A stretch of 64,000 nt of DNA, taken from positions 45,384-109,383 of the forward strand of contig JAMWDI010000006.1 in NCBI GenBank assembly GCA_023819375.1, written 5' to 3'. The notes under the pieces are model-generated. The model saw nothing but the letters and a program-made list of their open reading frames with translations, made no database searches and had not been told where the DNA came from. Position 1 is the first letter of the stretch, and every line of letters begins with the position of its first letter. Positions 8,098 to 24,150 of this stretch are shown in pieces. Origin of the DNA: Candidatus Omnitrophota bacterium. Its GTDB lineage: Bacteria > Ratteibacteria > UBA8468 > B48-G9 > JAFGKM01. A program made the position numbers and the translations under genes.

Positions 8098-9504
8098 ATG
8101 AAAATAAAAATTGAACATTTTTTTAGTTTTTTGTCCATCATTTATTTTTTAATTGTTTCTTTTCCTCATATTCCTACCTATAATAATATGTCTATTGATA
8201 GTGGTATTTATGCATATATTGGTCAACAGGTAAATAAAGGCAAAATTTTGTATAAAGAGGTCTGGGATTATAAATTTCCTGCCATCTATTACATATATGC
8301 ATTTCTTTTTAAAATTTTCCCAGATTCAAGATGGACATTATATTTTACAGATGTTTTTATTCATGTATGTATGTTAATCTTAATATTTTTAATTTTGAAA
8401 ATTTTTGAAAAAAGAGATTATTTCTGGATAATTTCTTTTCTCTTTACCACAACTTACAGAATTTATCCTTGTTTTAGTGGGGGCAATTTAGCAGAACATT
8501 TCTTTTTATTTATATCTTTTATTTCTTTATATTTATTATTTAAAAAACCTACAAAATTTTTTGATTTTACTCTTGGCAATTGTTTTGTCTGGATGTTAAT
8601 GTTCAAACAACCTTATATTTTGATTGTGTTAATAATATTCTTATTTTTTAAAGATAGAATTTTAAAGGGCGAAAAAAAATTCTTCTTTTGTGGTTTTCTA
8701 TTATCCTTTTTATTCTTTATTTGTGTGTTTTTAAAAGGAGCCCCTGAAAGTTTCGAAACGGTGACATTTCCTTTTAAAGTTACAAAAGAGAGTAATTTTA
8801 TAACTTTAAATACTTTGAAAAACTTTTTAAATAACCTTGAGTATAAAATAAGGATAATTTTATTTGTTGGTCCAGGAAAGCAAGTCCTATTATTTTTACC
8901 TATTTTTTTCTTTGTAAAAGATAGATTAAAATTTCTCTTTTTTTCTTTATTCCTTTCTTTGCTATTTATTTATTTGACAACTTTCGCTTTGTACGCACAT
9001 TATATACTTTTATTAAACATTTTAATTTTATTAGGGAGTATTATCTTGATAAAAAATTATCCAAAAAAATTTGCTTTATTTTTCCTTATTTTATTTACTT
9101 TATGGCCATTAACATTAATTAAAAAAAGGTTTATACATTCCTATAATGCCTTTTATAAATTTTTTGTTTTGAAAGACCACAGAATAAGAGTATATCCAAT
9201 TGTTTTTACTGTTGCAAAATATATTAAACCTAATGAAACTCTTTTTATGATACCTGATTATTGTGAAGTTTATTTTATATTGAAAATTGAAAGTCCTTGG
9301 CGATTTTGTGGAATTGGACAAGGAATCCCAAATTATCCAAAATTTAAAAATGAATTAAAAAAACTTATTAGAGAAAAACCTCCTGATTATTTTTATCTTG
9401 AGATTTCAATTAAAGAATTTGAAAATATTTTTGATCTTAAACCAAGTGAATATAAGTTAACTTTTCTTGAAAACAATCTTTATAAATTTAAAATTTTAAA
9501 ATAA
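8098..9504 (+). CDS. GT39-like multi-membrane glycosyltransferase, paralogue of the gene at 5731
   Basis: 468 aa with about ten hydrophobic helices. The first loop reads SIDSGIYAYIGQQVNKG, followed by FPAIYYIYAFLFKIFPDSRW, aligning closely with the 5731 product. The C-terminal ETLFMIPDYCEVYFILKIESPWRF again matches its partner. It is likely a duplicated polyprenyl-sugar transferase. It follows the URO-D-like gene by 4 nt without an obvious ribosome binding site. Its last 25 nt overlap the end of the convergent GT4 gene, leaving no room for a terminator between the two operons. Confidence 0.8.
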   Translation: MKIKIEHFFSFLSIIYFLIVSFPHIPTYNNMSIDSGIYAYIGQQVNKGKILYKEVWDYKFPAIYYIYAFLFKIFPDSRWTLYFTDVFIHVCMLILIFLILKIFEKRDYFWIISFLFTTTYRIYPCFSGGNLAEHFFLFISFISLYLLFKKPTKFFDFTLGNCFVWMLMFKQPYILIVLIIFLFFKDRILKGEKKFFFCGFLLSFLFFICVFLKGAPESFETVTFPFKVTKESNFITLNTLKNFLNNLEYKIRIILFVGPGKQVLLFLPIFFFVKDRLKFLFFSLFLSLLFIYLTTFALYAHYILLLNILILLGSIILIKNYPKKFALFFLILFTLWPLTLIKKRFIHSYNAFYKFFVLKDHRIRVYPIVFTVAKYIKPNETLFMIPDYCEVYFILKIESPWRFCGIGQGIPNYPKFKNELKKLIREKPPDYFYLEISIKEFENIFDLKPSEYKLTFLENNLYKFKILK

Positions 9505-10637
9505 AAATTTTGATAATTTTCAATCATTTTTTCTACTGAAAAATTTTTCTTTACTAATAAGTAATTTTTCTCACCCATACTCTTGCAAATTTCAGGATTT
9601 TGAAGTAAAAACAAAATTTTCTTTGAAATATCTTCTATATCTTTTGGTTTAACAAGAAATCCATTTATTCCATCATCTATTATTTCTTTTCCTCCACCAT
9701 ATTCAGAGCATATTACAGGCTTTTTACATGCCATTCCTTCAAGGATTAAATTTGGCATACCTTCCCATAAAGAAATAAGAACAATTATATCTGAAATTTT
9801 TATTAATTTTGGTAAATCTTGTCTAAAACCTGTAAATATAATATCCTTTTCCAATCCTAAATTTTGAATTAATCTCTCAAGTTTTCCTCTTTCAGGTCCT
9901 TCCCCTACTATCAAGAATTTTACTTCTTCAAATTCTTCTTTAACCCTTTTGCTAACATATAAAAAGGTTTCTAAATTTTTCTCAAATGACAATCTACCGC
10001 CAGTAAGAACTATTTTTTCATTCTCAATTCCAAATTCTTTTTTCAAATCATCAAATTCTATTTCGTCTTTCTCATATTTTTCTATTTCAATTCCATTATA
10101 TATAACATCTACTTTTTCAATACTTGCATTTAACCTCTTTAAATAAATGTTTTTAACTTCCTCTGAATTACAGACAATTTTTTTTGTAAATTTTAATAAA
10201 ATTTTATCTATAAAGAGATGATACCATTTCTTCCATAAATCAAGACTCCTTTCAGAAGCAATTATGACAGGGATTTTACATATAATTCCTGCAATTCTAC
10301 CCCAGAAATTTGAAGTAAACATAAATGTGTGTAAAATGTTTGGTTTTTCTCTTTTAAGTATTTTTATTAATCGGAAAAGAATAAAAAGATCAAATTTATA
10401 TTTTTTTTCCAGAATATAAAGTTTTGTTATTTTTTTAAAATCTTCTTTCATTCTTCCGCTTCTTAAAGAAATTAAAACAGTTTCAAAAATTTTCTTATCT
10501 AGATTTTTAATTAATAAATAAAGTTGTTTTTCTGCTCCACCAATTTGGAGAGTTCCTATAACAAAGCAAATTTTAATTTTCTTTGATGGATGAAATTTTA
10601 TTTTGTCCTGCCCAGTTATACCACTTTTCAATATCAT
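9480..10637 (-). CDS. GT4 family glycosyltransferase
   Basis: About 385 aa from the ATG at 10637. A TTG at 10649 would add four residues, and the true start could be later because the domain begins only at KIKICFVIGTLQIGGAEKQLYLL. GT-B fold: an N-terminal acceptor domain with GGAEKQ, then a donor domain with VLTGGRLSFEKNLETFL and the retaining E-x7-E motif in SLWEGMPNLILEGMACKKPVI. It is the last gene of the leftward flippase operon and its start overlaps the HEAT-repeat gene by about 65 nt. It adds one sugar during repeat-unit assembly; the donor is unknown. Confidence 0.88.
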   Translation of the reverse strand: MILKSGITGQDKIKFHPSKKIKICFVIGTLQIGGAEKQLYLLIKNLDKKIFETVLISLRSGRMKEDFKKITKLYILEKKYKFDLFILFRLIKILKREKPNILHTFMFTSNFWGRIAGIICKIPVIIASERSLDLWKKWYHLFIDKILLKFTKKIVCNSEEVKNIYLKRLNASIEKVDVIYNGIEIEKYEKDEIEFDDLKKEFGIENEKIVLTGGRLSFEKNLETFLYVSKRVKEEFEEVKFLIVGEGPERGKLERLIQNLGLEKDIIFTGFRQDLPKLIKISDIIVLISLWEGMPNLILEGMACKKPVICSEYGGGKEIIDDGINGFLVKPKDIEDISKKILFLLQNPEICKSMGEKNYLLVKKNFSVEKMIENYQNFYFKILNL

Positions 10638-11754
10638 ATCCCAAATCAATACCTGTTATTTTTTTTAATGATTCTCTTGCAATTTTTTTAAGTTCGTAAT
10701 TTTCACTTTTTAATAAATTAATCAATGAATAAATAGCTCTTTTGTCTCTAATTTCACCAAGAGCATAGGCAGAATATTCTCTGATGAGTAAGTGGTATCT
10801 GTCATTCAAATTTGATATAAGTGGCAATGTTGCTCTTTTATCTTTAAAAACTGCAAGGGCTTTTATTGCTTCAAGTTTTACTTCTATTTGTTTATCATAA
10901 ATTAAATTCAAAATTGGTTCAAAAAATCTTACATTATTAAATTCACAGGCAGATTTAATACTTGCAATTTTTACATACCAGTTTGAATCATTTAGCAATT
11001 CTATTAAACAAGAAATTGTTCTGGGATTTTTTATTTTTCCAAAAGTTTCAGCGATCTCTTTTCTTACAAAATTATTCTTATCATTGACAAGTGGAATTAA
11101 TTTTTCAACATCAACATTTTCTTTTATTTCCCCTATTGACCAAATTGCATATTTTCTTATTTCCCAATTTTTATCTTTCAAACATTCATAAAGATAAGGA
11201 AGAGATTTTTTGATTTTATTTTGTCCAAAATAAATTATTATTTTTATTTTTGTGTTATCATCTTGATTTTTGACAAAATTTATTAAAAAATCTATTTCAT
11301 CTTCATGTTTTGCCAAAATCATAAGGGCTTTTTCTCTAATTTCTGAATCTTCAGTATTTATTAAATTTTCAAGAGTTTTTATTCCATTTTTATCGTTCAT
11401 TTCGTCTACTAACTCAATCATTTTTAATTTTTTCTTTTTTGAAACTTCTGGATCATTTAGTTTTTCAAAAATATATGGTAGTATGTCAGGACCAATTTTT
11501 AACAACGTTTTCTTACTTTCCTCTGAAGGAGTTGTTTTTCCTAAATTTTTATCTGCTATAACTGTTTCATCGTCAAGAATATCTAAAAGATAAGGAATAC
11601 TTTCTCTTATTTCACATTTAAAGTTTCTTAATCTATAAGCAGAGAGGGCTTTTTTTAAAGCATTGTTTGATTTTAAATTTTCAATTTCTATTTGTAGTTC
11701 TTGTGAAAATAAAACTGAAAGAATTGAAAAGAAAATTAAAAAATATTTTCTCAT
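10573..11754 (-). CDS. Exported HEAT-repeat protein
   Basis: 393 aa from the ATG at 11754, preceded by a good AGAAGGAG ribosome site. A longer reading to 11841 would run into asnB and bury the signal peptide. MRKYFLIFFSILSVLFSQ is a typical signal peptide. The rest is a chain of roughly 30-residue helical repeats (for example LPYLYECLKDKNWEIRKYAIWSIGEIK and TISCLIELLNDSNWYVKIASIKSAC) typical of HEAT/PBS-lyase-type repeats, with no catalytic motif. It is probably a periplasmic scaffold. Its place between asnB and a GT4 gene suggests a role in glycan assembly or export, but this is inferred from position only. Confidence 0.8.
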   Translation of the reverse strand: MRKYFLIFFSILSVLFSQELQIEIENLKSNNALKKALSAYRLRNFKCEIRESIPYLLDILDDETVIADKNLGKTTPSEESKKTLLKIGPDILPYIFEKLNDPEVSKKKKLKMIELVDEMNDKNGIKTLENLINTEDSEIREKALMILAKHEDEIDFLINFVKNQDDNTKIKIIIYFGQNKIKKSLPYLYECLKDKNWEIRKYAIWSIGEIKENVDVEKLIPLVNDKNNFVRKEIAETFGKIKNPRTISCLIELLNDSNWYVKIASIKSACEFNNVRFFEPILNLIYDKQIEVKLEAIKALAVFKDKRATLPLISNLNDRYHLLIREYSAYALGEIRDKRAIYSLINLLKSENYELKKIARESLKKITGIDLGYDIEKWYNWAGQNKISSIKEN

Positions 11755-11770
11755 TTTTTTTCTCCTTCTC

Positions 11771-13660
11771 TTAATTAATTTTATAAATTTTTCTCCATAA
11801 TTCAAAAACAAGAATAAGAAATAATCTTGCCGAATGATCAACTTTTCCTTCTATGTGCTCATCAATTATATTTTTTACAATTTTAAAATCAAATAAATCC
11901 AGTTTGTTAAATTCATTATCTAAAAGAATTTCTTTTAAATAATTTCTTAATTCCTCCCTAAACCATTTTCCAAGAGGAACACCAAATCCCATTTTTTTTC
12001 TTTTCAAAATTTCCTCTGGTAAGAAATTTTTTAGTTTTTCTTTCAATATATATTTACTAATATTTCTTCTTAATTTCAAATCTGCAGGAAAAGTTGAAAT
12101 AAGTTCTATAAATTCTGTATCCAAAAATGGACTTCTTCCTTCAATAGAATTTGACATGCAGGCAATATCCATTTTAACAAGTAGAACTTCTGGAAGATAA
12201 AGATTAAAATCGCAAAAAATCATTTTTTCAAGCAAATCCCAGTTGTTTGTTTTTTCCCATAATTTCTCTGTTATTTCAAATGAATTATAATTTTTAAGTA
12301 TATTTTTGAAATTCTTACTATACAATTTTTGTTTCCATTCGGGCGAAAAAGATGTTAAACGCCTTGAATAGGCAAAACAAAAACCATTATCATCTGCTTC
12401 TTGTAGCCATTTTAAGATACGAGAAATCAAGGAATAGGGTTTCCAATCATAAATTTTCTTGATTAATATTTTAGTATTTTTGTTAAGTGTCCCAGATATT
12501 TTGAAAATTTTATATAATTTTTCAAGTAATTTTGTTTGATAATATCTTGGATATCCTGCAAAATTTTCATCTCCCCCATCTCCATTAAGTGCAACTTTAA
12601 CATATTTGCTTGTTTGTTGTGCTATATAGTAAGTTGGAATCATTGAAGAATCACCAAATGGTTCATTATAATACCAAACAAGTTTTGGCAATATTTCTAT
12701 AATATTGGGTTTAACAACAAATTCATAATGTTCTGTTTTAAATTTTTCTGCCACAATTCTCGCATATTTTAATTCATTAAAGTTCTTGACATCAAAACCA
12801 ACAGAAAATGTTTTTATGGGCTGACTTGATAAATTACTTATAATTCCAACAATAGTTGAAGAGTCAATTCCTCCTGATAAAAAGGCACCAATTGGGACAT
12901 CTGCTATCATTCTTATTTTTGTTGCTTCTTTTAATTTTTCCCATAAAAGTTCTTTATATTCATTTTCATTTCTTAAATATAGTTTCTTATTAAAATCAAT
13001 TTCCCAATACTTTTTTATTTTTATTTCTCCGTTTCTGTATATTAAATAATGGGCAGGCTGTAATTTTTTAATGTTTTCAAATATAGTTTTTGGTGATGGT
13101 ATTGCTTGATATGTAAAAAAATTATCAATGGCCTTAAAGTCAATCTTTTTTTCAATTTCTGGAACTTGCAGTAAACCTTTAATTTCAGAAGCAAAATAAA
13201 AATTTCCATTTTTGATTGTATAAACAAGAGGTTTTTTTCCAAGACGGTCTCTTGCAAGGAATAAAATTTTGTTTCTTTTGTCCCATATCGCAAAAGCAAA
13301 CATCCCTCTTAGATAATTTAAACAATTCTCCTTTTCTTCTTCATAAAGATGAACAATGACTTCATTATCTGATTTTGTTTGGAAAATATGTCCATTTTTT
13401 TCGAGATTTTTTCTTAAATCAATAAAATTGTATATTTCACCATTACAAACTAAAATCAAACTCTTATCTTCATTAAATAATGGTTGTTTTCCTGTTTCTA
13501 AGTCAATTATACTTAATCTCTTATGTCCTAATCCAACATTTTCTTCAAAAAAATAACCTTCTTCATCTGGCCCCCTATAATTCATAATTTCAATCATTTT
13601 TTTTAATTCTTCAATTTTTACCTTTTCTGCTTTTTTAATTATTCCAACTATTGCACACAT
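11771..13660 (-). CDS. asnB: Asparagine synthetase (glutamine-hydrolysing)-like amidotransferase
   Basis: 629 aa. The N-terminal nucleophile cysteine follows the initiator Met (MCAIVGI). The class II glutaminase domain covers roughly 1-200, with NYRGPDEEG and CNGEIYNF. The synthetase domain has the ATP pyrophosphatase loop LSGGIDSS at about 261-268. All expected motifs are intact. AsnB makes asparagine from aspartate, but homologues inside polysaccharide loci are thought to amidate sugar acids or other acceptors. Here it is flanked by glycosyltransferases, its start overlaps the stop of the upstream GT4 gene by 1 nt, and so a glycan role is likely though not provable. The symbol names the family. 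Confidence 0.9.
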   Translation of the reverse strand: MCAIVGIIKKAEKVKIEELKKMIEIMNYRGPDEEGYFFEENVGLGHKRLSIIDLETGKQPLFNEDKSLILVCNGEIYNFIDLRKNLEKNGHIFQTKSDNEVIVHLYEEEKENCLNYLRGMFAFAIWDKRNKILFLARDRLGKKPLVYTIKNGNFYFASEIKGLLQVPEIEKKIDFKAIDNFFTYQAIPSPKTIFENIKKLQPAHYLIYRNGEIKIKKYWEIDFNKKLYLRNENEYKELLWEKLKEATKIRMIADVPIGAFLSGGIDSSTIVGIISNLSSQPIKTFSVGFDVKNFNELKYARIVAEKFKTEHYEFVVKPNIIEILPKLVWYYNEPFGDSSMIPTYYIAQQTSKYVKVALNGDGGDENFAGYPRYYQTKLLEKLYKIFKISGTLNKNTKILIKKIYDWKPYSLISRILKWLQEADDNGFCFAYSRRLTSFSPEWKQKLYSKNFKNILKNYNSFEITEKLWEKTNNWDLLEKMIFCDFNLYLPEVLLVKMDIACMSNSIEGRSPFLDTEFIELISTFPADLKLRRNISKYILKEKLKNFLPEEILKRKKMGFGVPLGKWFREELRNYLKEILLDNEFNKLDLFDFKIVKNIIDEHIEGKVDHSARLFLILVFELWRKIYKIN

Positions 13661-14802
13661 TATTTAAGTACCTCTTTATAAATATTTAAAATACACCTAA
13701 TACAGTTTTCCCATGTAAAAATTTTACTTCTTTTTACACCTTTTTCTCTTAAATCTTCTTTTAAATTATCATTTTTTAAAATATTGAATATTTTGTCAAC
13801 TGCGTCATCTCTCTCAAATGGATTTACATAAATACCAGCATCCTGAACTATTTCAGGTAAAGAAGAAATATTTGAAACAATAACAGGGGCTCCACAACTC
13901 ATTGCTTCAACTACTGGAAGTCCAAAGCCTTCATAGAGTGAGAGAAAAATAAAAATTTCAGCACCAGAATAAAAATAAGGCATATCTTCTTTTGGAATTT
14001 CAGAAAAACAATAAACATGTTCTGAAATGTTCTTTTCCATTGCAAGTTTCAAAATATCTTTTTTTAAATAGTTAGTTCCAACAATTATTACAAGTTTTTC
14101 CTCAATTTTCTTTTCTTTTAAAATTTTGTAAATATCAAATAAAAATGGGATATTTTTCCTTTTTATAGAAGTTGCAACTGTTAAGATATATCTTTCATAA
14201 CTAAAATATTTTTTCAGTTTTTCAAAAGCATATTTCTTTTCAATTGGTCTGAAAACTTTGTGATTTACTCCCAAATAAACAACTTTTATTCTTTCTTCTG
14301 GAAGTTTATAAATTTCCATTATATCTTTTTTGGTTGAAAAAGAAGGGACTATGATTATATCACTTCTTATTGCTGAACTCTTTATTTCAGAATACCATTT
14401 TTCTTTATAAACTTCTGGCATAATTTCAAAAGATAAATCATAAATTGTATAAATTGTTTTAATTTTTTTAAACAAAGGAAGATATGTTGCAGAAATTCCA
14501 TGATAGATTGAAATTTTTTCTCTTTTTAATAATGTTTCAATAAAGGGGATTTTAAATTTTTCTTCTACAATTTTTATGAATTTTTTAGGAAATGGTAAAA
14601 TTTTTAAAGAAAAATTATTAGATTCTGGAATCTGAATATTTTTTATTCTTTTCCAATAATTTTTTAAAAAAAAACCAAAAATTAAATATTCATTTTCTTT
14701 ATCAATTGAACTTAAAGTATCCAAAAGTTCCGGAAGTAGATAATAAATCCCACCTTTTTCTGTTGAACTCAAACCGATACCAGCATCTATACATATTTTC
14801 AT
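13660..14802 (-). CDS. GT4 family glycosyltransferase
   Basis: 380 aa, GT-B fold. The N-terminus MKICIDAGIGLSSTEKGGIYYLLPEL is typical of mannosyl- or rhamnosyltransferase-like GT4 proteins. The donor domain shows ILTVATSIKRKNIPFLFD and the E-x7-E motif within SLYEGFGLPVVEAMSCGAPVI. Its start overlaps gmd by 4 nt and its stop overlaps asnB by 1 nt, so it is tightly coupled inside the operon. It closely resembles the product at 15782, suggesting duplication and successive addition of related sugars. Given gmd next door, a GDP-hexose donor is plausible but unproven. Confidence 0.9.
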   Translation of the reverse strand: MKICIDAGIGLSSTEKGGIYYLLPELLDTLSSIDKENEYLIFGFFLKNYWKRIKNIQIPESNNFSLKILPFPKKFIKIVEEKFKIPFIETLLKREKISIYHGISATYLPLFKKIKTIYTIYDLSFEIMPEVYKEKWYSEIKSSAIRSDIIIVPSFSTKKDIMEIYKLPEERIKVVYLGVNHKVFRPIEKKYAFEKLKKYFSYERYILTVATSIKRKNIPFLFDIYKILKEKKIEEKLVIIVGTNYLKKDILKLAMEKNISEHVYCFSEIPKEDMPYFYSGAEIFIFLSLYEGFGLPVVEAMSCGAPVIVSNISSLPEIVQDAGIYVNPFERDDAVDKIFNILKNDNLKEDLREKGVKRSKIFTWENCIRCILNIYKEVLK

Positions 14803-15785
14803 TTTTTAATTTTTAATTCAAGTTCTTTTAAATCATTTTCAACCATTATTCTCACAAGTTCTTCAAATTTCACCTTTGGTTGCCATCCAAGTTTGGTTTT
14901 TATTTTTGTAATATTGCCCCTTAATTCATAAACTTCTGCAGGTCTAAAAAGAGTTTTATCAATTTCAACATATTTTTCCCAATTTAGGTTAACTATTTTA
15001 AATGCAAGTTCTACAAATTCTTTAACTGAATGAGTTTCTCCAGTTGCAATTACATAATCTTCTGGTTTTTCCTGCTGTAACATTAAATACATTGCTTCAA
15101 CATATTCAGGAGCATAGCCCCAGTCTCTTTTTGCTTCAAGATTTCCAAGTTTTATTTTATCTAAAAGCCCCAATTTGATCATAGCAACACCTCTTGAAAT
15201 TTTCCTTGTAACAAATTCAAAACCTCTTCTTGGAGATTCATGATTAAAACAAATACCACTACAAGCAAACATATTATATGCTTCCCTATAGTTTTTTGTA
15301 AAATAATATCCAACAACTTTTGAAATACCATAAGGAGATCTTGGATTAAAAGGTGTATTTTCATTTTGTGGCGTTTCAATTGCCATTCCAAACATTTCAC
15401 TTGATGCAGCAAAATAAAATTTACAATCTGGTTTTCTATTTTTTAAAGCAGAAAGAATATAAATTGTTCCATTTATATTTGTATTTAAAGTTGAAAATTC
15501 ATCTTCAAAGGAATAACTTACAAAACTTTGTGCTGCAAGATGATAACATTCATCAGGTTTAACTTTTTCAACTATGTTATATATACTTGCATAACTTTCA
15601 AGAGAACCACAATGAAGATGAATTTTATCAACTATATGTCTTATTCTCCATAATCTATGCTCAGGATCTTCAAAAGCCACTCTCCTTACTATTCCATGGA
15701 CTTCATATCCCTTTTCAAGCAATAATTCAGCAAGATATGAACCATCCTGACCCGTAATTCCAGTTATTAATGCCCTTTTTTTCAT
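14799..15785 (-). CDS. gmd: GDP-mannose 4,6-dehydratase
   Basis: 328 aa, extended short-chain dehydrogenase. The NADP-binding motif GITGQDGSYLAELLLEKGYEVHG opens the protein. YHLAAQSFVSYSFEDE, the catalytic YGISK tyrosine-lysine pair and FNHESPRRGFEFVTRKI are hallmarks of GMD. It converts GDP-D-mannose to GDP-4-keto-6-deoxymannose, the precursor of GDP-fucose, GDP-rhamnose or GDP-perosamine. None of the finishing enzymes (fucose synthase, RMD or PerA) is in this window. It overlaps both neighbours by 4 nt and clearly belongs to the glycan operon. Confidence 0.95.
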   Translation of the reverse strand: MKKRALITGITGQDGSYLAELLLEKGYEVHGIVRRVAFEDPEHRLWRIRHIVDKIHLHCGSLESYASIYNIVEKVKPDECYHLAAQSFVSYSFEDEFSTLNTNINGTIYILSALKNRKPDCKFYFAASSEMFGMAIETPQNENTPFNPRSPYGISKVVGYYFTKNYREAYNMFACSGICFNHESPRRGFEFVTRKISRGVAMIKLGLLDKIKLGNLEAKRDWGYAPEYVEAMYLMLQQEKPEDYVIATGETHSVKEFVELAFKIVNLNWEKYVEIDKTLFRPAEVYELRGNITKIKTKLGWQPKVKFEELVRIMVENDLKELELKIKK

Positions 15786-16933
15786 ACTACCTCCTTTTTT
15801 AACCTCTTATAAATTTCTAATGTCTCTTTAGCGGTCTTTTCCCAACTAAATAATTTTGCTCTTTCCAGTCCCTTATTTATTAATTCATTCCTTAATTCAA
15901 CATTTGTTAAAATTTTTTCTATAGCATAAACTATCTCTTCTATATTGTAAGGGTTGACTAAAATACCAGCATTACCTGCAACTTCCGGTAAAGAGGAAAT
16001 GTTTGAAGTGATGACTGGAACTCCACAGGCCATTGCTTCAATTACTGGTAATCCAAATCCTTCATATAAAGATGGATATACAAAGACTTCACATCCATTA
16101 TAAAGATAAGGCATTTCATAAATTGGAACATATCCTGTAAGTATTATATCTTTTGTTATTTTTTCAGGGATTTCAGCCATTTTTTTGTAAAAAATTTCTG
16201 ATTTCCAACCAATCTGACCACAAATGACAAGTTGCAATTCAGGAATTTTATTTTTTATTAAAATAAAAGCGTCAATCAATCTTATTATATTTTTTCTTGG
16301 TTCAATTGTTCCAACAAAAAGTAAATATTTTTTTGTAATTCCATATTTCTTTTTTACATTTTCTATTTTTTCTTTATCTTCTAATTTTTTATAAATTTCA
16401 GATGGAGCAAGATAGACAACATCTATTTTTTCAGAATTTAATTTGAAATAGTTTATAAGGTCATTTTTTGTTGAAAAAGAATCTGCAATAATTTTATCAA
16501 CTCTTTTAACTGCTCTTAAAATAATAAATTTAAATTTTTCATAATGTAAGGGTAAAAACCAATCAGGATTAATTAAAGGTGTTATATCATGTATAGTAAT
16601 GACTTGTTTTCCTAAAATATTGACTGGTGAAAAGGGGTGCAAAGTATGAATTATATCAAATTTCCCATGGTAAAATTCTATTGGTATAAATGTCTGAACT
16701 GTATAATTATAAATTTTATTTGAAAAGAACTTAATACTTACCTTAAAATTTTTCTGCTTGAATTCTTCTTTAATTTTTTTCATTTCTTTATATTTCTTTA
16801 TCGAAACTGCATAAAGAATATAAAAATTTTCAGTATCAATTTTGCTTAAATTTTTCAAAAGATTATAAGAATACCAACCAATCCCTGCTTTTTTGTTCCA
16901 TGCTAAAGGAGTAATGTCAATTCCTATCTTCAT
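15782..16933 (-). CDS. GT4 family glycosyltransferase
   Basis: 383 aa GT-B enzyme. It starts MKIGIDITPLAWNKKAGIGWYSYNLLKNL. The donor domain has LLFVGTIEPRKNIIRLIDAF and YPSLYEGFGLPVIEAMACGVPVITSNISSLPEVAGNAG, the standard retaining GT4 motifs with E-x7-E. It is similar to the protein at 13660. It overlaps gmd by 4 nt and lies 2 nt after the nucleotidyltransferase gene. The likely task is adding a mannose-like or 6-deoxyhexose residue to the lipid-linked repeat unit. The exact sugar is not readable. Confidence 0.9.
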   Translation of the reverse strand: MKIGIDITPLAWNKKAGIGWYSYNLLKNLSKIDTENFYILYAVSIKKYKEMKKIKEEFKQKNFKVSIKFFSNKIYNYTVQTFIPIEFYHGKFDIIHTLHPFSPVNILGKQVITIHDITPLINPDWFLPLHYEKFKFIILRAVKRVDKIIADSFSTKNDLINYFKLNSEKIDVVYLAPSEIYKKLEDKEKIENVKKKYGITKKYLLFVGTIEPRKNIIRLIDAFILIKNKIPELQLVICGQIGWKSEIFYKKMAEIPEKITKDIILTGYVPIYEMPYLYNGCEVFVYPSLYEGFGLPVIEAMACGVPVITSNISSLPEVAGNAGILVNPYNIEEIVYAIEKILTNVELRNELINKGLERAKLFSWEKTAKETLEIYKRLKKEVV

Positions 16934-16935
16934 TT

Positions 16936-17634
16936 TTAGAAATATTTTTCACAAATATCTATATCTTCTCTAAAATTTATATTTATATAAAATCCTTCAA
17001 AAATTACTGGACTTATAAATTCTCCCCCATCAATCATCTTTTGAATTACATCTGTTATTTCAATTTCATTTCTTAGAGGAGATGGTGGTGTTATTTTAAT
17101 ATAATCAAAAACAACTCTATCAAAGAAATAAAAACCCATTCCACATAAATTGTTGACAATATGTTTTGGTTTTTCTACAACCTTAATAACTTTTTTATTT
17201 TTTATTTCAACTGAGTAACTCTTTTTTATATCTTCAGGATTATCTGTTTTCCAAACTCCTATACCTTGTTTCATGTTTTTGGGAAAAATAAAATTTCCCT
17301 TGCATAGACAATCTCCTAAGACAACTATGAATTTTTTATTTACATAATCTTCAACAAGGGAAACCGCATGACCAATTCCTTTTAATTCTTTTTGTTCAAC
17401 AAACTCGCTTTTGATATTTAGGGTTTTAACATATTCAATTATTTTTTCTTTTTTGTAACCTACAACAAAAATAAATTTATCTGTTATATTTTTCCAATAA
17501 TCAATAATATAATAAAGAATAGGTTTATTTTTTATCAAGATCATGCTTTTGGGTAAATCTGGTTCGTTTAATCGAAGTCCTTTCCCTGCACATAAAACTA
17601 CACATTTCAAATCTTCTTTAAAAAATTTTTCCAT
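16936..17634 (-). CDS. Sugar-phosphate nucleotidyltransferase
   Basis: 232 aa from the ATG at 17634, which has AAGGG upstream and lies just after the stop of the previous gene; a reading to 17661 would overlap that gene needlessly. VVLCAGKGLRLNEPDLPKSMILIKNKPILYYIIDYW is the nucleotide-binding signature of the glucose-1-phosphate uridylyl/thymidylyltransferase family, with GxGxR and PK. FIVVLGDCLCKGNF holds the metal-binding aspartate and VVEKPKHIVNNL follows. It makes an NDP-sugar for the cluster. The base and sugar are uncertain. Confidence 0.85.
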   Translation of the reverse strand: MEKFFKEDLKCVVLCAGKGLRLNEPDLPKSMILIKNKPILYYIIDYWKNITDKFIFVVGYKKEKIIEYVKTLNIKSEFVEQKELKGIGHAVSLVEDYVNKKFIVVLGDCLCKGNFIFPKNMKQGIGVWKTDNPEDIKKSYSVEIKNKKVIKVVEKPKHIVNNLCGMGFYFFDRVVFDYIKITPPSPLRNEIEITDVIQKMIDGGEFISPVIFEGFYININFREDIDICEKYF

Positions 17635-17635
17635 T

Positions 17636-18901
17636 TTAGTTTTTCCCTTTATAAAATTCAATAATTTTACTTATATTTTTTTCATTATCCCATATTTCTT
17701 TTGCTTTTTTAAATGCATTTTCTCCAAATTTTTTTACAAGTTCATTATTTTTTAACAATATCTTTATTTTTTCAGCGAACTCATAAATATTTTGAGGTTC
17801 ACAAAGAAAGCCTTCTTTTCCATCTTCTATAAATTCTTTAATTCCTCCTATTCTACTTGCTACAATCGCTTTTTTATTAAACATACTTTCAACAAGAACG
17901 ACAGGAGACATATTTTCCCACTGTTCAGGAATTACAACTACTTTTGATTCTTTAAAATATTTTTTAATTTCTTGATGATGTAATTTCCCTTTAATTACAA
18001 CATTCTCGCTTAAATTTTTATCTTTTATCATTTTAAAAATATTTTCAACATATTTTTTTTCAACATTTTCAATTTCTCCAATTACATATAAAAGAACATC
18101 TGGAATTTCTTTTTTTATATTACTTAATGCTTCAATCAAAATATGAAGTCCTTTTCTGTATTGAATCCATCCTATATAAAGTAATATATTTCCTTTTGGT
18201 AAATCATATGGTTCATCTTTAAACTCCTCAAATATTTGAGGAATAACTTTTGATTTTCTTATTGAAAGGCCATATTCTCTACCAATTTTTAAGGAAGAGT
18301 TTGATAAGAAAATGTATCCATCTATTTTTTTTAGAAAGAAGTTGAAAAATTTTTTTCTTAAAGGTAAAAATATTCTAAATCTAAATTGGATTTTAAAACA
18401 CTTGAAACAATAAATACTGTTATATTTTTTACAGATATTATTGTTTAAATCAATCAATGTTTCATTCGGGCAGAAAAACCAATAATCATAAATAGATAGA
18501 AAAGATTTTATTTTGTAAAGTTTAACCCATATTAAGGGTGCAAATGAAATTTTTTTAAAATTGTGAAAATGAACAATTTCTGGTTTTATTTTTTTAAGAA
18601 TTTTCCTTGATTTTAAAAAGACAATTATATCAAAAGGAAAAATTATTTTGAAAAAATCAAAATTGCTTAAAATCCTGTTTTTTAAACTTTTAGGCTTTTT
18701 AAAGTCAATATAATTGTAAATTGTTTTTGTAACAAAAACATTTTTCTCTAAAATCTTATTTTTTGTTGGTGGTGTTATAAGATAATAATTTTTTATTTTA
18801 TTTTTCTCTAATTCTTTAACCAACCTCATAGTTGCAATTTCTGCACCACCATAAAAGTCATGATAATCAGGATGAAAGTCAACTATGTGTAAAATTTTCA
18901 T
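17636..18901 (-). CDS. GT4 family glycosyltransferase
   Basis: 421 aa. MKILHIVDFHPDYHDFYGGAEIATMRLVKEL has the GGAE motif of GT4 acceptor domains. The donor domain reads LLYIGWIQYRKGLHILIEALSNI, later followed by PEQWENMSPVVLVESMFNKKAIVASRIGGIKEFI. The second glutamate of E-x7-E is clear; the first lies in EQWENMSP, a variant of the usual EGFG. Mid-protein cysteines (PNETLIDLNNNICKKYNSIYCFKCFK) form a small Cys cluster often seen in this GT4 branch. It overlaps the radical SAM gene by 4 nt. Donor and acceptor are unknown. Confidence 0.88.
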   Translation of the reverse strand: MKILHIVDFHPDYHDFYGGAEIATMRLVKELEKNKIKNYYLITPPTKNKILEKNVFVTKTIYNYIDFKKPKSLKNRILSNFDFFKIIFPFDIIVFLKSRKILKKIKPEIVHFHNFKKISFAPLIWVKLYKIKSFLSIYDYWFFCPNETLIDLNNNICKKYNSIYCFKCFKIQFRFRIFLPLRKKFFNFFLKKIDGYIFLSNSSLKIGREYGLSIRKSKVIPQIFEEFKDEPYDLPKGNILLYIGWIQYRKGLHILIEALSNIKKEIPDVLLYVIGEIENVEKKYVENIFKMIKDKNLSENVVIKGKLHHQEIKKYFKESKVVVIPEQWENMSPVVLVESMFNKKAIVASRIGGIKEFIEDGKEGFLCEPQNIYEFAEKIKILLKNNELVKKFGENAFKKAKEIWDNEKNISKIIEFYKGKN

Positions 18902-20037
18902 TTTATATATTCTTTTATCTTTTTAAAAATTTTTTTTGCTATTGAAATTTTATAAGGCCTCATATCTGATGTCATTTTGTATATTTTTTCTTGTAAATCT
19001 TTTGAATATGTATCTGCTATTGGCTTTGCTTTTTCTCCATAAAATAAAGAGTCATATTGCATTTGTTTATCAAAAGGAACATAATAAGAAAAATGAGCAT
19101 TTATTCCTATTTGTTTTGCCCATTCTAAACTTTTTAAGTCCTTTTCATATGATGAACCGGGTAAACCTATAATGAAAAATCCATTAACACTATCAAAATA
19201 TTTTTTAGCAATCAAAACCGCTTTTTCAATATCTTTACTTGTTTCTCCTTTTTTAATAAATTTTAAAATTTCGTCATCAATACTTTCTATTCCAAAACTT
19301 ATATGAGTACATCCTGCTTCTTTTAAAGCAATTGCCACTTCTTCATCAAATCTATCTGCTCTTAAACCATTGGCACAACTCCATTTTAAATTTAAGTTTT
19401 TAACAAGTTCACAAAATTTTATAACTCTTTTTTTGTCTACATTAAAGCAGTCGTCAAGAATTGAAAAAGATTTTATATTCCACTTTTCTTTTGCTAATTT
19501 AAGTTCCTCATAACAATTTTCTGGACTTCTAGTCAGATATTTTTTATTTCTGCTTACACAATAGATACACTGATAAGGACATCCCTGAGAGGTCATTATA
19601 GCATAATTCCATACACCTTTTTGCCAGTTTTTGAGAAATATCGGAAAAGAATCAAAGAGTTCATAATTTGGAAAAGGTAGTTGGTCTGAAAAGGGTATAT
19701 TTATTTCTATTTTTTCATCAAAATTAATATAGGGATAACAACATTGAACTTCAATTATTCCAGATACAGACTTTATTTTTGCTTCAGGATATTTTTTCTT
19801 ATATTTTTCAGCAATTTTCCTTGCTTCACTATATGTTCTTGATTGAATAGAAATACCAACTGTATCTGCTTTTATTTTTAAGTATCTATTTTTGGGTTTG
19901 GGTAAAGTATTTAAATCAATTATTCTACAATTTAAAATAGTTCCAATATAAGCAATTCCAATATTGGGTATATCAAAATTTACTCCTGCATAAGGATTAA
20001 TCAAAATTATGTTTTTATATTTTATCGGATATTCCAT
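18898..20037 (-). CDS. Radical SAM protein with reduced B12-binding-like N-terminus
   Basis: 379 aa from the ATG at 20037 (MEYPIKYKNIILINPY); a reading to 20082 lies wholly inside the upstream gene. The 4Fe-4S/SAM motif CPYQCIYC places cysteines near 153, 157 and 160. The following FSILDDCFNVDKKRV and HISFGIESIDDEILKFIKKG are typical of B12-binding-type radical SAM proteins. The N-terminal 120 residues look like a shortened cobalamin domain (DTVGISIQSRTYSEARKIAEKYKKKYP), but no DxHxxG cobalamin motif is present, so B12 binding is doubtful. Substrate unknown. It overlaps the second radical SAM gene by 23 nt, within a glycan operon. Confidence 0.85.
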   Translation of the reverse strand: MEYPIKYKNIILINPYAGVNFDIPNIGIAYIGTILNCRIIDLNTLPKPKNRYLKIKADTVGISIQSRTYSEARKIAEKYKKKYPEAKIKSVSGIIEVQCCYPYINFDEKIEINIPFSDQLPFPNYELFDSFPIFLKNWQKGVWNYAIMTSQGCPYQCIYCVSRNKKYLTRSPENCYEELKLAKEKWNIKSFSILDDCFNVDKKRVIKFCELVKNLNLKWSCANGLRADRFDEEVAIALKEAGCTHISFGIESIDDEILKFIKKGETSKDIEKAVLIAKKYFDSVNGFFIIGLPGSSYEKDLKSLEWAKQIGINAHFSYYVPFDKQMQYDSLFYGEKAKPIADTYSKDLQEKIYKMTSDMRPYKISIAKKIFKKIKEYIK

Positions 20038-21235
20038 ATTTTTCTTCTCTATCAATTGTATTATATGCTCTACACCCTGCACATAGAATTGGAACTTTTT
20101 CTCTTTTTTTTACAATCATCTTTCTAAATTCTATATATCTCTTTGAATACCATATTTCTTTAAAAGGTTTTTCAAAAATGTTGCCTAAAGCATATTTTTT
20201 TAAAAAATCTCTTTTATTAGACATTAAAACTGCACAACAAGGCATTACATATCCGCCCATCATAATATAGGGTTCCTGCCAAGCAATGCAATTATGCATT
20301 GGTTGTAAATTTTTAGGATGTGTTGGATGAACAAATGAAATATTCATTCCAAGTTTTTTTGCTTTTTTTATTGTCAATTTTATTAATTCATCAGGTATTT
20401 TAGGCAAAAAAAGATGTTCAATTTCTGGAAAATAAAGTAATCCTGTAAATTCAATTCTACTTCCTGGACCCAATAAATTTTTATTTAATGAATATACAAG
20501 TTCAACAAAATCTGGCATTTCGTGAACATTTAATTTATTAACTATATATCTAAAATAAACTTCTGGAATTGGAGATTTATATTCTTTTTTTAATTTTAAA
20601 AATGTTTTAATGTTGTTTAAGGTTTTTTCAAAATTACAACCAATTTTTATTTTTTCATAAGTTTCTTTTGTTGCTGCATCAATTGAAATATAGATTGTGT
20701 CTACTCCAAGTTCTATAAGTTTTTTAGAAATATTTTCATCAATTAAATCAAAACTATCAACTAATGCAACAAAAATATCTCTCTTTTTTAAATATTCAAT
20801 CATTTTTAAATAATCTTTATTCAAAAAAGCATCACCTTCACCTGTTAAATTAACCCATTTTAATTTTGGAAAATTTGAAATGATTTTTTTAAATTCTTCA
20901 AAACTTAAATCTTTGTTTGGTTCTTTCCAATAGGTATGTTCACAGATTAAACATTTCTTATTACATTTTGTTGTAATTTCAATTTCTAAGACTTGTGGAT
21001 AGCCTATTATTTCAGGGATTAAATTGGGATATAATTTTAAAATTGGAAGAAAGATTGAACCTATCCAATTGCCAGTCCCTTCTCCACCAGCAAAAACAAA
21101 AAATTTTGTCCATAGAAATTTATATAATCCTCTAATACCCCTTTTTCTTAAAATATAAAAGATAATTTTTTTGTAATTGAACAAATTGAAGATTGGAGTT
21201 ATTATAAGTTCTAAATTTTTAAAAATTTTTTTCAT
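20015..21235 (-). CDS. Radical SAM protein with SPASM-like C-terminus
   Basis: 406 aa. EIEITTKCNKKCLICEHTYW carries the CxxxCxxC cluster at about 91, 95 and 98, with LSFEEFKKIISNFPKLKWVNLTGEGDAFLNKDYLKMI after it, as in SPASM/twitch proteins. The C-terminal part has MPCCAVLMSNK, then GNIFEKPFKEIW and PILCAGC, cysteines that could hold an auxiliary cluster. The family modifies peptides, sugars and cofactors. It overlaps the flippase gene by 17 nt and the next radical SAM gene by 23 nt. Together they suggest an unusual chemical step on the surface polymer, which is inference. Confidence 0.85.
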   Translation of the reverse strand: MKKIFKNLELIITPIFNLFNYKKIIFYILRKRGIRGLYKFLWTKFFVFAGGEGTGNWIGSIFLPILKLYPNLIPEIIGYPQVLEIEITTKCNKKCLICEHTYWKEPNKDLSFEEFKKIISNFPKLKWVNLTGEGDAFLNKDYLKMIEYLKKRDIFVALVDSFDLIDENISKKLIELGVDTIYISIDAATKETYEKIKIGCNFEKTLNNIKTFLKLKKEYKSPIPEVYFRYIVNKLNVHEMPDFVELVYSLNKNLLGPGSRIEFTGLLYFPEIEHLFLPKIPDELIKLTIKKAKKLGMNISFVHPTHPKNLQPMHNCIAWQEPYIMMGGYVMPCCAVLMSNKRDFLKKYALGNIFEKPFKEIWYSKRYIEFRKMIVKKREKVPILCAGCRAYNTIDREEKYGISDKI

Positions 21236-22709
21236 TTTTAATCATTTCCTTAATCCAATTTGTTTTTAAGACTAACCCAAAATAGACAATGCAGCAAAAG
21301 ATTACTTCAATAAATAAAAGATAAATATTCTTGTTAAAAAATTTAAAACTATTTATTAACCATACAATTAAAAAAAGCAAACTACTTCCCATCAATGGAA
21401 CAAAAATAGAGTTTTTAAAAGTAAAAGAAAAGTTTATTTTTAGAATTTTATGAAAAATCCACAGTAAATATGAAGTGCTGAGGCTAATGGAAATTAATGT
21501 GGCAATTATCACACCAACAAAACCTATAATTTTTATTAAAACGTATGTAAGGACTATATTTAAAATACTTTGAAATACACTGGCATACATTTGATATTCT
21601 GGCTTTTCTATACCTACTAAAATTGCAGTTAAATTTGAAGAAAGTAAAGTTATTAAAAAAATTAAACTGAATAATCTTAAAACAATAATTGAATTTTCAT
21701 ATCCAGGCCCAACCCATACATTTATTATTAAAGGAGCAGCTGCAGTTATAAAAAACATAATTGGAAAGGCAAAAGTTGAAACATATTTCAATCCATATGT
21801 ATGTAATTTTATTAATTTCCCCTTTTCATTTAATGCTTTCAATTCTGCTGATGCAGGTACAATTGCCGAATTTAAAACTCTTATCATACTTGCAAGTTTT
21901 TCAGGTATAGTATATCCGATCTGATAAATTCCAACAAGGCCTACATTTAAAAAGTGCGATATGAAAAATTTATCCGTTTGATATGTTATAACTTCTTCAA
22001 TTGTAGTTAGCCATCTTTTAATCCCAAATTTACTCAATTTTTTTAACATGTTTTTTTCAAAGTTTAAAAAATTCATTTCAACTTCAGGAAATATTTTAAA
22101 AACAAAATAGATATATATTAAACTTCCAATTGAGTATACAAGAAAATTATTAAGCATCAATCCTTTTATTCCCCAGTTATTTTTTATAAAGAAGATAACA
22201 CCTAAAGCGTGTAGAGATGTGAGAAATATTGTAATTTTCCCTGTGATATCCATTCTTTGAAATCCCCTTATGCAACTTTGAAAAAGATTAAAGATGTTAG
22301 AAAATCCTACATAAATAATTGTCCATTTAAAAAGGAATTGAGTATCATCTTTAAATTCCTGTGGTATTTTTAGAATTTTTATTAAATAGGAAGGAGAAAA
22401 AAAAGCAAGTGGTAACAGAATTAAAAATATAATGAAATAAAAAAATAAACCAGATTTTATTACATAATTTATGTTGTCTATCTCATTTTTTGTCTTATAT
22501 TCTGCAATATATCTTTCAAAGGACTGCCCTATACCAAAATCAATAAGAGAAAAATATCCTGTTATCAATGTAATTAAAGACCATATACCATATCTATTTA
22601 CTCCAAGATTTTTTAGAACAAAAGGAACAAGGAAAAATCCTAAAATAGCAGAATACCCATAACTTATAAGATTGTAGATTGTGTTTCTTATAATTTTTTC
22701 TTTTAACAT
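21219..22709 (-). CDS. Polysaccharide flippase (Wzx/MVF-type)
   Basis: 496 aa, about twelve to fourteen hydrophobic helices. The start MLKEKIIRNTIYNLISYGYSAILGFFLVPFVLKNLGVNRYGIWSLITLI is characteristic of the oligosaccharide flippase family (PF01943/PF13440 type). It moves lipid-linked repeat units across the inner membrane. It is the first gene of the leftward glycan operon. No Shine-Dalgarno sequence precedes the ATG, and the predicted transcription start is about 5 nt upstream, so the transcript may be leaderless. The start codon touches the operator described at 22709-22749. Named by family only, since wzx genes vary greatly. Confidence 0.9.
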   Translation of the reverse strand: MLKEKIIRNTIYNLISYGYSAILGFFLVPFVLKNLGVNRYGIWSLITLITGYFSLIDFGIGQSFERYIAEYKTKNEIDNINYVIKSGLFFYFIIFLILLPLAFFSPSYLIKILKIPQEFKDDTQFLFKWTIIYVGFSNIFNLFQSCIRGFQRMDITGKITIFLTSLHALGVIFFIKNNWGIKGLMLNNFLVYSIGSLIYIYFVFKIFPEVEMNFLNFEKNMLKKLSKFGIKRWLTTIEEVITYQTDKFFISHFLNVGLVGIYQIGYTIPEKLASMIRVLNSAIVPASAELKALNEKGKLIKLHTYGLKYVSTFAFPIMFFITAAAPLIINVWVGPGYENSIIVLRLFSLIFLITLLSSNLTAILVGIEKPEYQMYASVFQSILNIVLTYVLIKIIGFVGVIIATLISISLSTSYLLWIFHKILKINFSFTFKNSIFVPLMGSSLLFLIVWLINSFKFFNKNIYLLFIEVIFCCIVYFGLVLKTNWIKEMIKNEKNF

Positions 22710-22758: not shown

Positions 22759-23241
22759 TTATTTTGAGGAAATTATTGTAGAATAACTTTGCAAATATTT
22801 AAGGTTTTTAGAAAAAAACTCAAGTTTATCTGTTAGTTTTTCAATTTCTTTTATTTTGTTTTTTATTAATTTTTCATTTTTTACCTTTTCAATATTTTTC
22901 TTTATTTCTTTCAGATATTTTCTGATTTCATTTATTCTTTTTAGAAGTCCTGTTTGTAATTTATTTATTATAATTCCTTCTATATCTTCATTTGCTTTAT
23001 ATAGTGGTCTTGTATGTCCCCTTTTCCAGACTTTTTCAACTGCATTCCAATCTTCAAGTTTTTTTAGATTTATACTTACATTACCCTTACTAATTCCAAG
23101 TTCTTTCGTTATTTGGGAAGGAGAAAGAGGTTTTGAATTTAAATATAAAAGAGCATAAATTTGACAGGTTGTTCTATTAAGTCCCAATCCTTCTCCTATG
23201 TTTCCAGCCAGTTCTATCAGTTTTTCTTTTATTTTATCCAT
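22759..23241 (-). CDS. GbsR/MarR-like winged-helix transcriptional regulator
   Basis: 160 aa. The segment ICQ-like LNRTTCQIYALLYLNSKPLSPSQITKELGISKGNVSINLKKLEDWNAVEKVWKRGHTRPLYKA is a winged helix-turn-helix of the GbsR type (recognition helix around ISKGNVSINLKKL). The C-terminal third is a charged, likely coiled-coil dimerisation helix (RINEIRKYLKEIKKNIEKVK). GbsR homologues often sit beside exopolysaccharide or solute genes. Its promoter carries the same operator half-sites as the downstream flippase operon, so autoregulation plus control of the glycan operon is likely. The start at 23241 has no Shine-Dalgarno sequence. The effector is unknown. Confidence 0.85.
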   Translation of the reverse strand: MDKIKEKLIELAGNIGEGLGLNRTTCQIYALLYLNSKPLSPSQITKELGISKGNVSINLKKLEDWNAVEKVWKRGHTRPLYKANEDIEGIIINKLQTGLLKRINEIRKYLKEIKKNIEKVKNEKLIKNKIKEIEKLTDKLEFFSKNLKYLQSYSTIISSK

Positions 23242-23244: not shown

Positions 23245-23290
23245 GTTTAACTTGTTTTATATATTTTAAACTTTTGAAAAGAAAAATCAA
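23245..23290 (-). promoter_or_regulatory. Promoter and autoregulatory operator of the GbsR-like gene
   Basis: Reverse strand: TTGATT (23290-23285) and TAAAAT (23268-23263), 16 nt apart. The -10 box overlaps GTTTAA-N6-TAAAAC (23271-23254), one mismatch from the GTTTAA-N6-TTAAAC palindrome of the flippase promoter, and a third half-site TTAAAC follows (23250-23245). The -35 box overlaps the end of aroE. Confidence 0.65.
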
Positions 23291-24150
23291 TATTTAAATT
23301 TAGAAAATTCTTGTAAGGATTTCTTCATTATGTCAACCGGTGCTTTTTTCCCAGTCCATATTTCAAATGATATTGCTCCTTGATAGACAAGCATTGAAAG
23401 TCCATCAAGATGTGGAATTTTTAAATTTTCTGCAATTTTTAAAAGTTCAGTTTTTCTGTTATAAACAATATCATAAACAAATTTCACCTTTTCTATATTT
23501 TTTTTGTCTATAAGAAGCGTATCTCCTTCTTTCATCCCAACAGAGGTAGTATTTATTAATATGTCAATACTTTCCCATATCTTTTTTTCGTTTCTTTTTT
23601 CAAATTCAATTATTTCAACCTTTTGAAAATTAAGTTTTCTCTGAATGTGTTCTTTAAGTTTAACAGCATTCTCAAAAGTTCTATTTGTAATAAAAATTGA
23701 ATTAACTTTTTTAGAAATAAGTGAACCACAAATTGCATATGCACTACCACCTGCTCCAATAATAAAAATGTTTTTGTTTTCAGGATCAAATTTCCCATCT
23801 TCTATTAAAGACCTTATAAAGCCATCTCCATCAGTTGTATATCCTTTTAACTTTCCATCTAAATTATGAATAGTATTAACAACTTCAAGTATTTTGCTCG
23901 TTTCATCAAGTTCATCTATATATTTAATGATTTCTTTTTTATGAGGAATTGTTACATTCACACCTATCCAGTTGAAAACTTTTATTGCTTCTACTGCTGT
24001 TTTTAAATTTTCTGGTTTGACTTCAAATGGTAGATAAACAAAGTCAATTCCAAGATATTCAAAAGCAGAATTCTGGAAGATTGGAGAAAGAGTATGGGTC
24101 ACAGGATATCCAAAAACTCCTGTAATTTTTGTTGTACCTTTAATTTTCAT
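23287..24150 (-). CDS. aroE: Shikimate dehydrogenase (NADP+)
   Basis: 287 aa, normal for AroE. The substrate-binding motif FGYPVTHTLSPIFQNSAF, the catalytic lysine in NVTIPHKKEII, the NADP loop IIGAGGSAYAICGSLI and the C-terminal DGLSMLVYQGAISFEIWTG are all present. It reduces 3-dehydroshikimate to shikimate in aromatic amino acid and chorismate synthesis. It stands alone among shikimate genes here and is followed by the GbsR-like regulator, whose -35 box overlaps its stop. The divergent parA gene lies 99 nt away. Confidence 0.95.
   Translation of the reverse strand: MKIKGTTKITGVFGYPVTHTLSPIFQNSAFEYLGIDFVYLPFEVKPENLKTAVEAIKVFNWIGVNVTIPHKKEIIKYIDELDETSKILEVVNTIHNLDGKLKGYTTDGDGFIRSLIEDGKFDPENKNIFIIGAGGSAYAICGSLISKKVNSIFITNRTFENAVKLKEHIQRKLNFQKVEIIEFEKRNEKKIWESIDILINTTSVGMKEGDTLLIDKKNIEKVKFVYDIVYNRKTELLKIAENLKIPHLDGLSMLVYQGAISFEIWTGKKAPVDIMKKSLQEFSKFKY

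Follow-up and report, generated by a model that had tools for sequence, protein, structure and literature searches.

What do two radical SAM proteins, encoded by overlapping genes, contribute to a polysaccharide operon of a Candidatus Omnitrophota bacterium? The genes lie on the minus strand of the window, i.e., the whole 64,000-nucleotide stretch of DNA that was analyzed. Gene B (20015..21235) encodes a radical SAM protein of 406 residues with a C-terminal SPASM/twitch-type auxiliary-cluster domain, and gene A (18898..20037) encodes a short, B12-class-derived radical SAM protein of 379 residues, counted from the ATG at 20037. Both open reading frames are intact, and from this ATG they overlap by exactly 23 nt (20015-20037), as the initial annotation had stated. 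An alternative start of A, a GTG at 20082 obtained mechanically, would extend the overlap with B to 68 nt.

All other genes of the operon are on the same strand. The first encodes a Wzx-type flippase (21219..22709; Pfam Polysacc_synt), and a MarR/GbsR-type regulator (22759..23241) stands at the head of the locus. A is followed by a GT4 glycosyltransferase, GT4a (17636..18901; Pfam Glycos_transf_1), with an overlap of 4 nt, and by NTPT (16936..17661; Pfam NTP_transferase), an RmlA/GalU-like sugar-1-phosphate nucleotidylyltransferase for which an internal ATG is a likelier start than the annotated TTG. Then come the glycosyltransferase GT4b (15782..16933), the GDP-mannose 4,6-dehydratase gmd (14799..15785; TIGR01472, 419 bits against a cut-off of 415), the glycosyltransferase GT4c (13660..14802), an asparagine-synthetase-like amidotransferase, asnB (11771..13660), a HEAT-repeat-like protein recognized from its sequence (10573..11841), and a further glycosyltransferase, GT4d (9480..10649). 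The pair of radical SAM genes had been described as lying between a flippase and glycosyltransferases, next to an asparagine-synthetase-like gene; the flippase is immediately upstream and glycosyltransferases are downstream, but the asparagine-synthetase-like gene is separated from A by five other genes.

Adjacency alone says little in this genome. With 28 Radical_SAM matches in 1.73 Mb, about 0.5-0.7 adjacent pairs are expected by chance, which would favor the view of A and B as incidental neighbors. We regard that view as refuted, with a negligible chance of being correct, because the same two families occur together at 17 of 19 loci across phyla; it is this conservation that makes the pair real. 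The 19 loci, the window included, are those recovered in a survey of the A family, and they span at least nine named phyla: Actinomycetota, Margulisbacteria, Nitrospirota, Omnitrophota, Eremiobacterota/Vulcanimicrobiota, Elusimicrobiota, Planctomycetota, TA06, and Thermodesulfobacteriota. GT4a and NTPT are each present at 16 of them, and most of the loci that miss a member of this four-gene set are contig ends. One locus (L040) has no GT4a, and at another (L043) A, GT4a and NTPT are found outside any obvious glycan cluster, with no B seen in the stretch searched. The order of the four genes is shuffled between loci, while the set is kept together. In 386 genomes, A was detected in 6 and B in 9, and all 6 genomes with A are among the 9 with B; the probability of such nesting by chance is ~2e-11, if the genomes are independent. 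The divergence of A tracks that of GT4a (Mantel r 0.66, p 0.0002) and that of B (r 0.48, p 0.001), whereas B and NTPT are uncorrelated (r -0.04). Where B occurs without A, NTPT is retained (3/3 loci). Of the 109 neighbors that lie no more than 8 kb away, 26 are additional radical SAM proteins and the rest are mostly glycosyltransferase families; GT4b-like neighbors are seen at many A loci. Searches of a plasmid collection returned only generic matches, at 21-26% identity, and the open-access literature on radical SAM enzymes in surface-polysaccharide clusters yielded nothing on such a module.

The locus is hypervariable behind its conserved MarR-type regulator. gmd is 87% identical in another member of the host family, and gmd and asnB, like GT4c and GT4d, count among the backbone glycan genes of that family rather than among the genes of the module; the HEAT-repeat-like gene is operon context. 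The flippase has no match at E 1e-40 in the other genomes of the host family and is itself a variable part of the context. We thus rejected Wzx, gmd and asnB as partners of the module. The initial annotation had called the pair a candidate for an undescribed biosynthetic system and had proposed a neighborhood survey for exactly these three homologues. The constant partners turned out to be one GT4 glycosyltransferase and one nucleotidylyltransferase instead; what stands is that the pair is conserved with glycan genes and that neither A nor B matches a curated NCBIfam family above cut-off. Nor are the homologues found mostly without glycan genes, and the two proteins do not belong to a known family with an unrelated substrate. 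A role in defense was also considered and rejected, as PADLOC matches are weak and generic only (pVip, 49 bits), and the score against the viperin family NF038283 is 35 bits where its curated cut-off is 180.

A contains a Radical_SAM domain (80 bits; Pfam cut-off 29.5), and its CxxxCxxC motif (residues 153-160; 19558..19581) is invariant in 19 A sequences, which form a discrete monophyletic family of short radical SAM proteins. Its N-terminus is not a complete B12-binding Rossmann domain. The match to the B12-binding Pfam profile is partial (positions 8-84 of 121) and below cut-off (19.4 against 32.1 bits), and the back half of that domain (GGPH...GEGE, ~45 residues) is absent from every aligned member. 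In an alignment with full-length relatives, its place is taken by a CCY motif (residues 99-101; 19735..19743) that is invariant in 19/19 A sequences, and whose cysteine pair is specific to A. Judged from these alignments, A is a cobalamin-domain-truncated descendant of B12-class radical SAM enzymes, the broad class to which the HpnJ and BchE families belong. In the predicted structure (pLDDT 89.7) the shortened N-terminus keeps four parallel strands. The nearest full-length proteins (L030-L032) likewise adjoin GT4 genes. The lack of a DxHxxG motif in A had been mentioned in the initial annotation, but as a sign of unusual chemistry it is uninformative: DxHxxG is absent from every full-length B12-class protein checked in these loci, barring one chance C-terminal match, and class-1 cobalamin radical SAM enzymes bind cobalamin without a histidine ligand (PMC13331322).

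Most of what is known about sugar chemistry by radical SAM enzymes comes from antibiotic biosynthesis, and one of the enzymes concerned, AprD4, has a B12-class architecture that works without cobalamin. AprD4 is the nearest known structure to A by three measures, i.e., VIA-align (Z 28.6, rmsd 3.7 over 343 residues; next 23.3), Foldseek (TMq 0.71; next 0.62) and a profile search of PDB sequences (1e-18), although the set of solved structures is small, so that 'nearest' is biased toward well-studied enzymes. The predicted model of A thus has an AprD4-like overall fold. The two proteins share only ~20% identity, however, and unlike A, AprD4 has a CxxxCxxxC motif and an N-terminal part that is ~55 residues longer, and acts with a partner reductase, AprD3, in antibiotic synthesis (the apramycin pathway). 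A scores 51.2 bits against the AprD4 family NF033070, whose curated cut-off is 500. AprD4 itself is a radical SAM 1,2-diol dehydratase that catalyzes C3' deoxygenation of an amino-sugar substrate (PMC5461906).

B combines a Radical_SAM domain (59 bits; cut-off 29.5) with a SPASM domain (50 bits; residues 317-388). Its CxxxCxxC motif (residues 91-98; 20942..20965), followed by EHTYW, is invariant in 17 B sequences. After this core only Cys316, Cys334, Cys385 and Cys388 are invariant in the same sequences (20072..20290). That is, the seven-cysteine SPASM pattern for two auxiliary clusters is not present in B, and the cysteines suffice for one cluster, as in the twitch domain of BtrN, which is also the first match of the B profile in the PDB (2e-14). 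B therefore resembles the carbohydrate enzymes BtrN, NeoN and HygY in its four invariant post-core cysteines and single auxiliary cluster; it differs from them in its low identity, its glycan-locus setting, a basic helical N-terminal extension, and the lack of a conserved spare cysteine between the core and the auxiliary cluster. The extension (54-106 residues; helical in a model with pLDDT 82.7) is mostly but not uniformly amphipathic in a hydrophobic-moment test, hinting at membrane contact. By fold, B is closest to DesII, a nucleotide-sugar radical lyase (VIA-align Z 23.0, rmsd 4.1, 306 residues aligned), but at low identity and tied with the peptide maturases SuiB and SkfB, so the fold cannot tell sugar from peptide enzymes. 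The best NCBIfam match, the tungsten-enzyme maturase TIGR04317, reaches 136 of the 380 bits of its cut-off, and no tungsten enzyme is among the genes examined near B.

That tie with SuiB and SkfB, and the frequent action of SPASM/twitch enzymes on peptides, could be taken to mean that A and B are RiPP-type peptide or protein modifiers present in glycan loci by happenstance. This appears rather improbable, and a RiPP system proper was rejected for want of a precursor and an RRE: the core genes overlap and leave no space for a precursor gene, small ORFs are shared only by close anammox relatives and by no other loci, a Pfam scan found no RRE/PqqD-like domain in B, whose N-terminal extension is helical, and the constant partners are NTPT and GT4a. 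Somewhat less remote, yet unlikely, is that A remains a cobalamin-dependent C-methyltransferase or rearrangement enzyme akin to HpnJ or GenK, its four-stranded Rossmann domain still holding cobalamin. Its B12-class descent and four parallel strands would fit, given that class-2 cobalamin radical SAM enzymes have four-stranded domains (PMC13331322), and HpnJ (TIGR03471) is its best NCBIfam match; this match amounts to 106.7 bits against a cut-off of 577.6, however, and the loss of the GGPH...GEGE half from all aligned members, like the sub-threshold Pfam match, argues against the idea.

More probable, though still rather unlikely, is that A is a radical epimerase in which a cysteine of the CCY motif donates the hydrogen atom, with B either a dehydrogenase or lyase partner or acting independently. 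To our knowledge, the radical SAM sugar epimerases described are twitch-type and have no B12-class origin, which counts against this assignment. In its favor are the invariance and A-specificity of the cysteine pair, and the fact that two A-less loci (L075, L076) carry an epimerase-type SDR beside B and NTPT. The best match of this SDR is CDP-tyvelose 2-epimerase (the L075 copy at E 7e-52), and a nucleotide-sugar gene of this kind is found at none of the A loci. A precedent for the donor is NeoN, in which Cys249 donates a hydrogen atom (PMC10991966).

The interpretation we prefer, and consider reasonably probable, is that B, A, GT4a and NTPT constitute a mobile sugar-tailoring module for the surface glycan. 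What the analysis establishes is that the genes are kept together, which families A and B represent, that A is truncated, and which motifs and predicted folds the two have; that the substrate is a sugar, in which order the steps run and which reactions take place is our inference. NTPT would convert a sugar phosphate into a nucleotide sugar. B and A would then modify the sugar ring by hydrogen-atom abstraction, either on the nucleotide sugar or on a lipid-linked glycan; most likely, B would act like BtrN or DesII and oxidize or open a C-OH position, and A would either remove a hydroxyl, as AprD4 does, or invert a center with a cysteine of the CC motif. The product would be attached by GT4a to the nascent surface glycan, for export by the flippase. 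The outcome is probably an unusual sugar, made by radical chemistry that needs no oxygen, and the surface polymer would carry an uncommon modification, as initially proposed. A bolder and more speculative form of this proposal is that A founds a class of cobalamin-free, CCY-type radical enzymes, dehydratases or epimerases of sugars, that together with B make a deoxy or otherwise uncommon sugar for surface glycans without the need for oxygen, and that the genes form a cassette exchanged between the glycan loci of different phyla.

If this is correct, a conserved two-enzyme radical module in surface-glycan loci would extend such chemistry to the making of cell-surface polymers, in mostly uncultured phyla of which many are anoxic. 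The module is also a small, testable enzyme set. A in particular shows a B12-class enzyme that has naturally lost half of its cobalamin domain and acquired an invariant cysteine pair, and it bears on how such enzymes change their chemistry. With regard to mobility, A and B have a GC3 of 0.14, which falls inside the range of the window; the idea that base composition betrays a recent horizontal import was therefore rejected, and the genes, if imported, have ameliorated.

The two overlapping radical SAM (rSAM) genes of the window, here called A and B, lie in a polysaccharide operon. B (20015-21235, minus strand; 406 aa, Radical_SAM and SPASM) is preceded on the same strand by a Wzx-type flippase (21219-22709), and overlaps A (18898-20037, minus strand; 379 aa, Radical_SAM plus a B12-binding match that is partial and below threshold) by 23 nt, given an ATG start of A at 20037. 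The next two genes on this strand encode GT4a (17636-18901), a glycosyltransferase of family GT4, and NTPT (16936-17661), which is a sugar-1-phosphate nucleotidylyltransferase; they are followed by GT4b, gmd, GT4c, an asparagine-synthetase-like amidotransferase, a HEAT-repeat-like protein and GT4d. From the flippase through GT4d, a single strand is used throughout and overlaps are short. No NCBIfam model matched A or B at or above its cut-off. The glycan operon has at its far end a gene judged by eye to be uroporphyrinogen-decarboxylase-like (7119-8093), next to a membrane GT-like gene.

With 28 Radical_SAM matches in the 1.73-Mb host genome, a single adjacent pair is unremarkable by itself, and conservation is thus the test. 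Among 61 relatives, both A and B were found in one other genome only, G031 (same class, different family), where they are adjacent, in the same order, and overlap by 4 nt; this genome shares the contig with a MAG labelled candidate division TA06. In a wider sample of 386 genomes, A occurs in 6 and B in 9, and every A genome falls within the B set; under independence the chance of such nesting is ~2e-11, a figure weakened by relatedness and transfer. When 84,980 species genomes were scanned with the A alignment, by a pattern-based method whose count is a lower bound, 17 true members (40-68% identity) were recovered, separated by a gap from generic rSAM proteins at ~30% identity.

HMMs of the A, B, GT4a and NTPT families were run against all loci; because most members were included in the models, the score gap counts and the absolute score does not. 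The scores are clearly bimodal for all four families, with members at or above 467 bits for A (next best, 246), 369 for B (209), 361 for GT4a (164) and 238 for NTPT (106). The 19 A loci, mostly MAG-derived like the other loci and in some cases reaching contig edges, include B in 17, GT4a in 16 and NTPT in 16. Two stretches (L046, L047) end at A or just past it, and that of L050 just past a B-like paralogue; NTPT is replaced in L049 by a CMP-NeuA-type cytidylyltransferase, L040 is without GT4a, and B was not found within 3.5 kb upstream in L043. The A-GT4a-NTPT set of L043 (3564-6691, a Brocadiaceae MAG) is not within any obvious glycan cluster. The orders B-A-GT4a-NTPT, A-GT4a-NTPT-B and NTPT-B-A-GT4a all occur, and that the set stays together while its order shuffles argues for functional coupling. 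Co-divergence was seen for A with GT4a (r 0.66), A with B (r 0.48) and NTPT with GT4a (r 0.55), and not for B with NTPT. The open-access literature, to which this statement is confined, yielded nothing on such a module.

Aligned to full-length relatives, A is missing ~45 residues of the cobalamin domain (the GGPH...GEGE segment), and carries D[VI]QCCYPY in their place, with CCY invariant in 19 A sequences. The family is monophyletic (support 100/100); its nearest full-length proteins (L030-L032), whose exact branching is weakly supported, are encoded by genes that likewise adjoin GT4 genes. The structure models were built from alignments of 19 A and 17 B sequences. That of A (pLDDT 89.7) comprises a radical SAM barrel and four parallel N-terminal strands, and its top match among solved structures is AprD4 (Z 28.6, rmsd 3.7, 343 residues; next MgmA, 23.3), which Foldseek and a sequence-profile search (E 1e-18) also rank first. 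Together with the reductase AprD3, this radical SAM diol dehydratase deoxygenates paromamine (PMC5461906). A falls outside the curated AprD4 family (51 bits versus a cut-off of 500). Class-1 cobalamin rSAM enzymes need no His ligand, and some cobalamin rSAM proteins have no more than four strands (PMC13331322). Thus, the absence of DxHxxG in A says little, and loss of cobalamin is likely but unproven.

B has invariant cysteines at 91, 95 and 98, then at 316, 334, 385 and 388. It lacks the seven-cysteine SPASM set; its post-core cysteines suffice for one auxiliary cluster, as in the twitch protein BtrN, which is also its top profile match in the PDB (E 2e-14). In the fold search DesII, SuiB and SkfB fall within one Z unit, and the fold therefore cannot decide between sugar and peptide. 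The carbohydrate rSAM epimerase NeoN uses a cysteine as hydrogen donor (PMC10991966). The lack of an invariant spare cysteine in B tilts the reading towards a dehydrogenase or lyase. The basic, mostly amphipathic N-terminal extension of B may contact the membrane.

Three genomes (L075-L077) carry B without A, and all three keep NTPT. In L075 (8375-9415) and L076 (11717-12745) a CDP-tyvelose-2-epimerase-like SDR lies near B and NTPT (closest match of the L075 protein, CDP-tyvelose 2-epimerase, E 7e-52); it was found in none of the A loci. Its usual catalytic Tyr is apparently His (PLHASK). NTPT and SDR beside an A-less B point to nucleotide-sugar chemistry for B, and these two cases suggest that A and the SDR may fill similar roles.

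Partner genes and nearest folds make a sugar the probable substrate. NTPT would form a nucleotide sugar, whose ring B and A would remodel by hydrogen-atom abstraction. B would probably oxidise it or carry out an elimination, and A would remove a hydroxyl or invert a centre; GT4a would then move the product into a lipid-linked unit for export by the flippase. Alternatively, A might catalyse cobalamin-dependent methylation or a CC-dependent epimerisation. Peptide modification by the pair, with which the fold of B would be compatible, is the least supported reading, since a precursor, an RRE domain and a conserved small ORF were all looked for and none was found.

In the host lineage, a MarR-type regulator (22759-23241) and the rest of the parA-parB-aroE-MarR run (23287-25388) are syntenic in same-genus genomes (L092, L093, L094). 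The genes after the regulator differ, with names given by eye: ABC-transporter-type glycan genes in G003 and G005 and a GT39-like gene in G001. The glycan locus is hypervariable, and this run forms its border. Two A loci (L036, L047) and the A-relative locus L031 likewise begin with related MarR genes. In family members, homologues of gmd, GT4c, GT4d and asnB recur (identity up to 87%), and the flippase and module do not. Thus, the surface-glycan locus is variable but conserved in its distal part, and the flippase and radical module have been placed into it. Their base composition is no different from that of the host.

B is adjoined by additional full-length rSAM genes of the B12 class, which form recurrent clades of their own (types CHNSW and CANDH), at L025:1296-2660, L035:1226-2593, L038:7566-8945 and L047:2734-4956, and at L037:13173-14630 and L044:7378-8868. 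These are accessory enzymes, and the window has none. In the Desulfobulbaceae loci L049 (6847-9141) and L050 (11315-12385) a tandem SPASM paralogue adjoins B, near a NeuA-like and a NeuB-like gene, respectively. A Nitrospirota MAG (L041:1936-17040) combines the module with a dense run of radical SAM genes.
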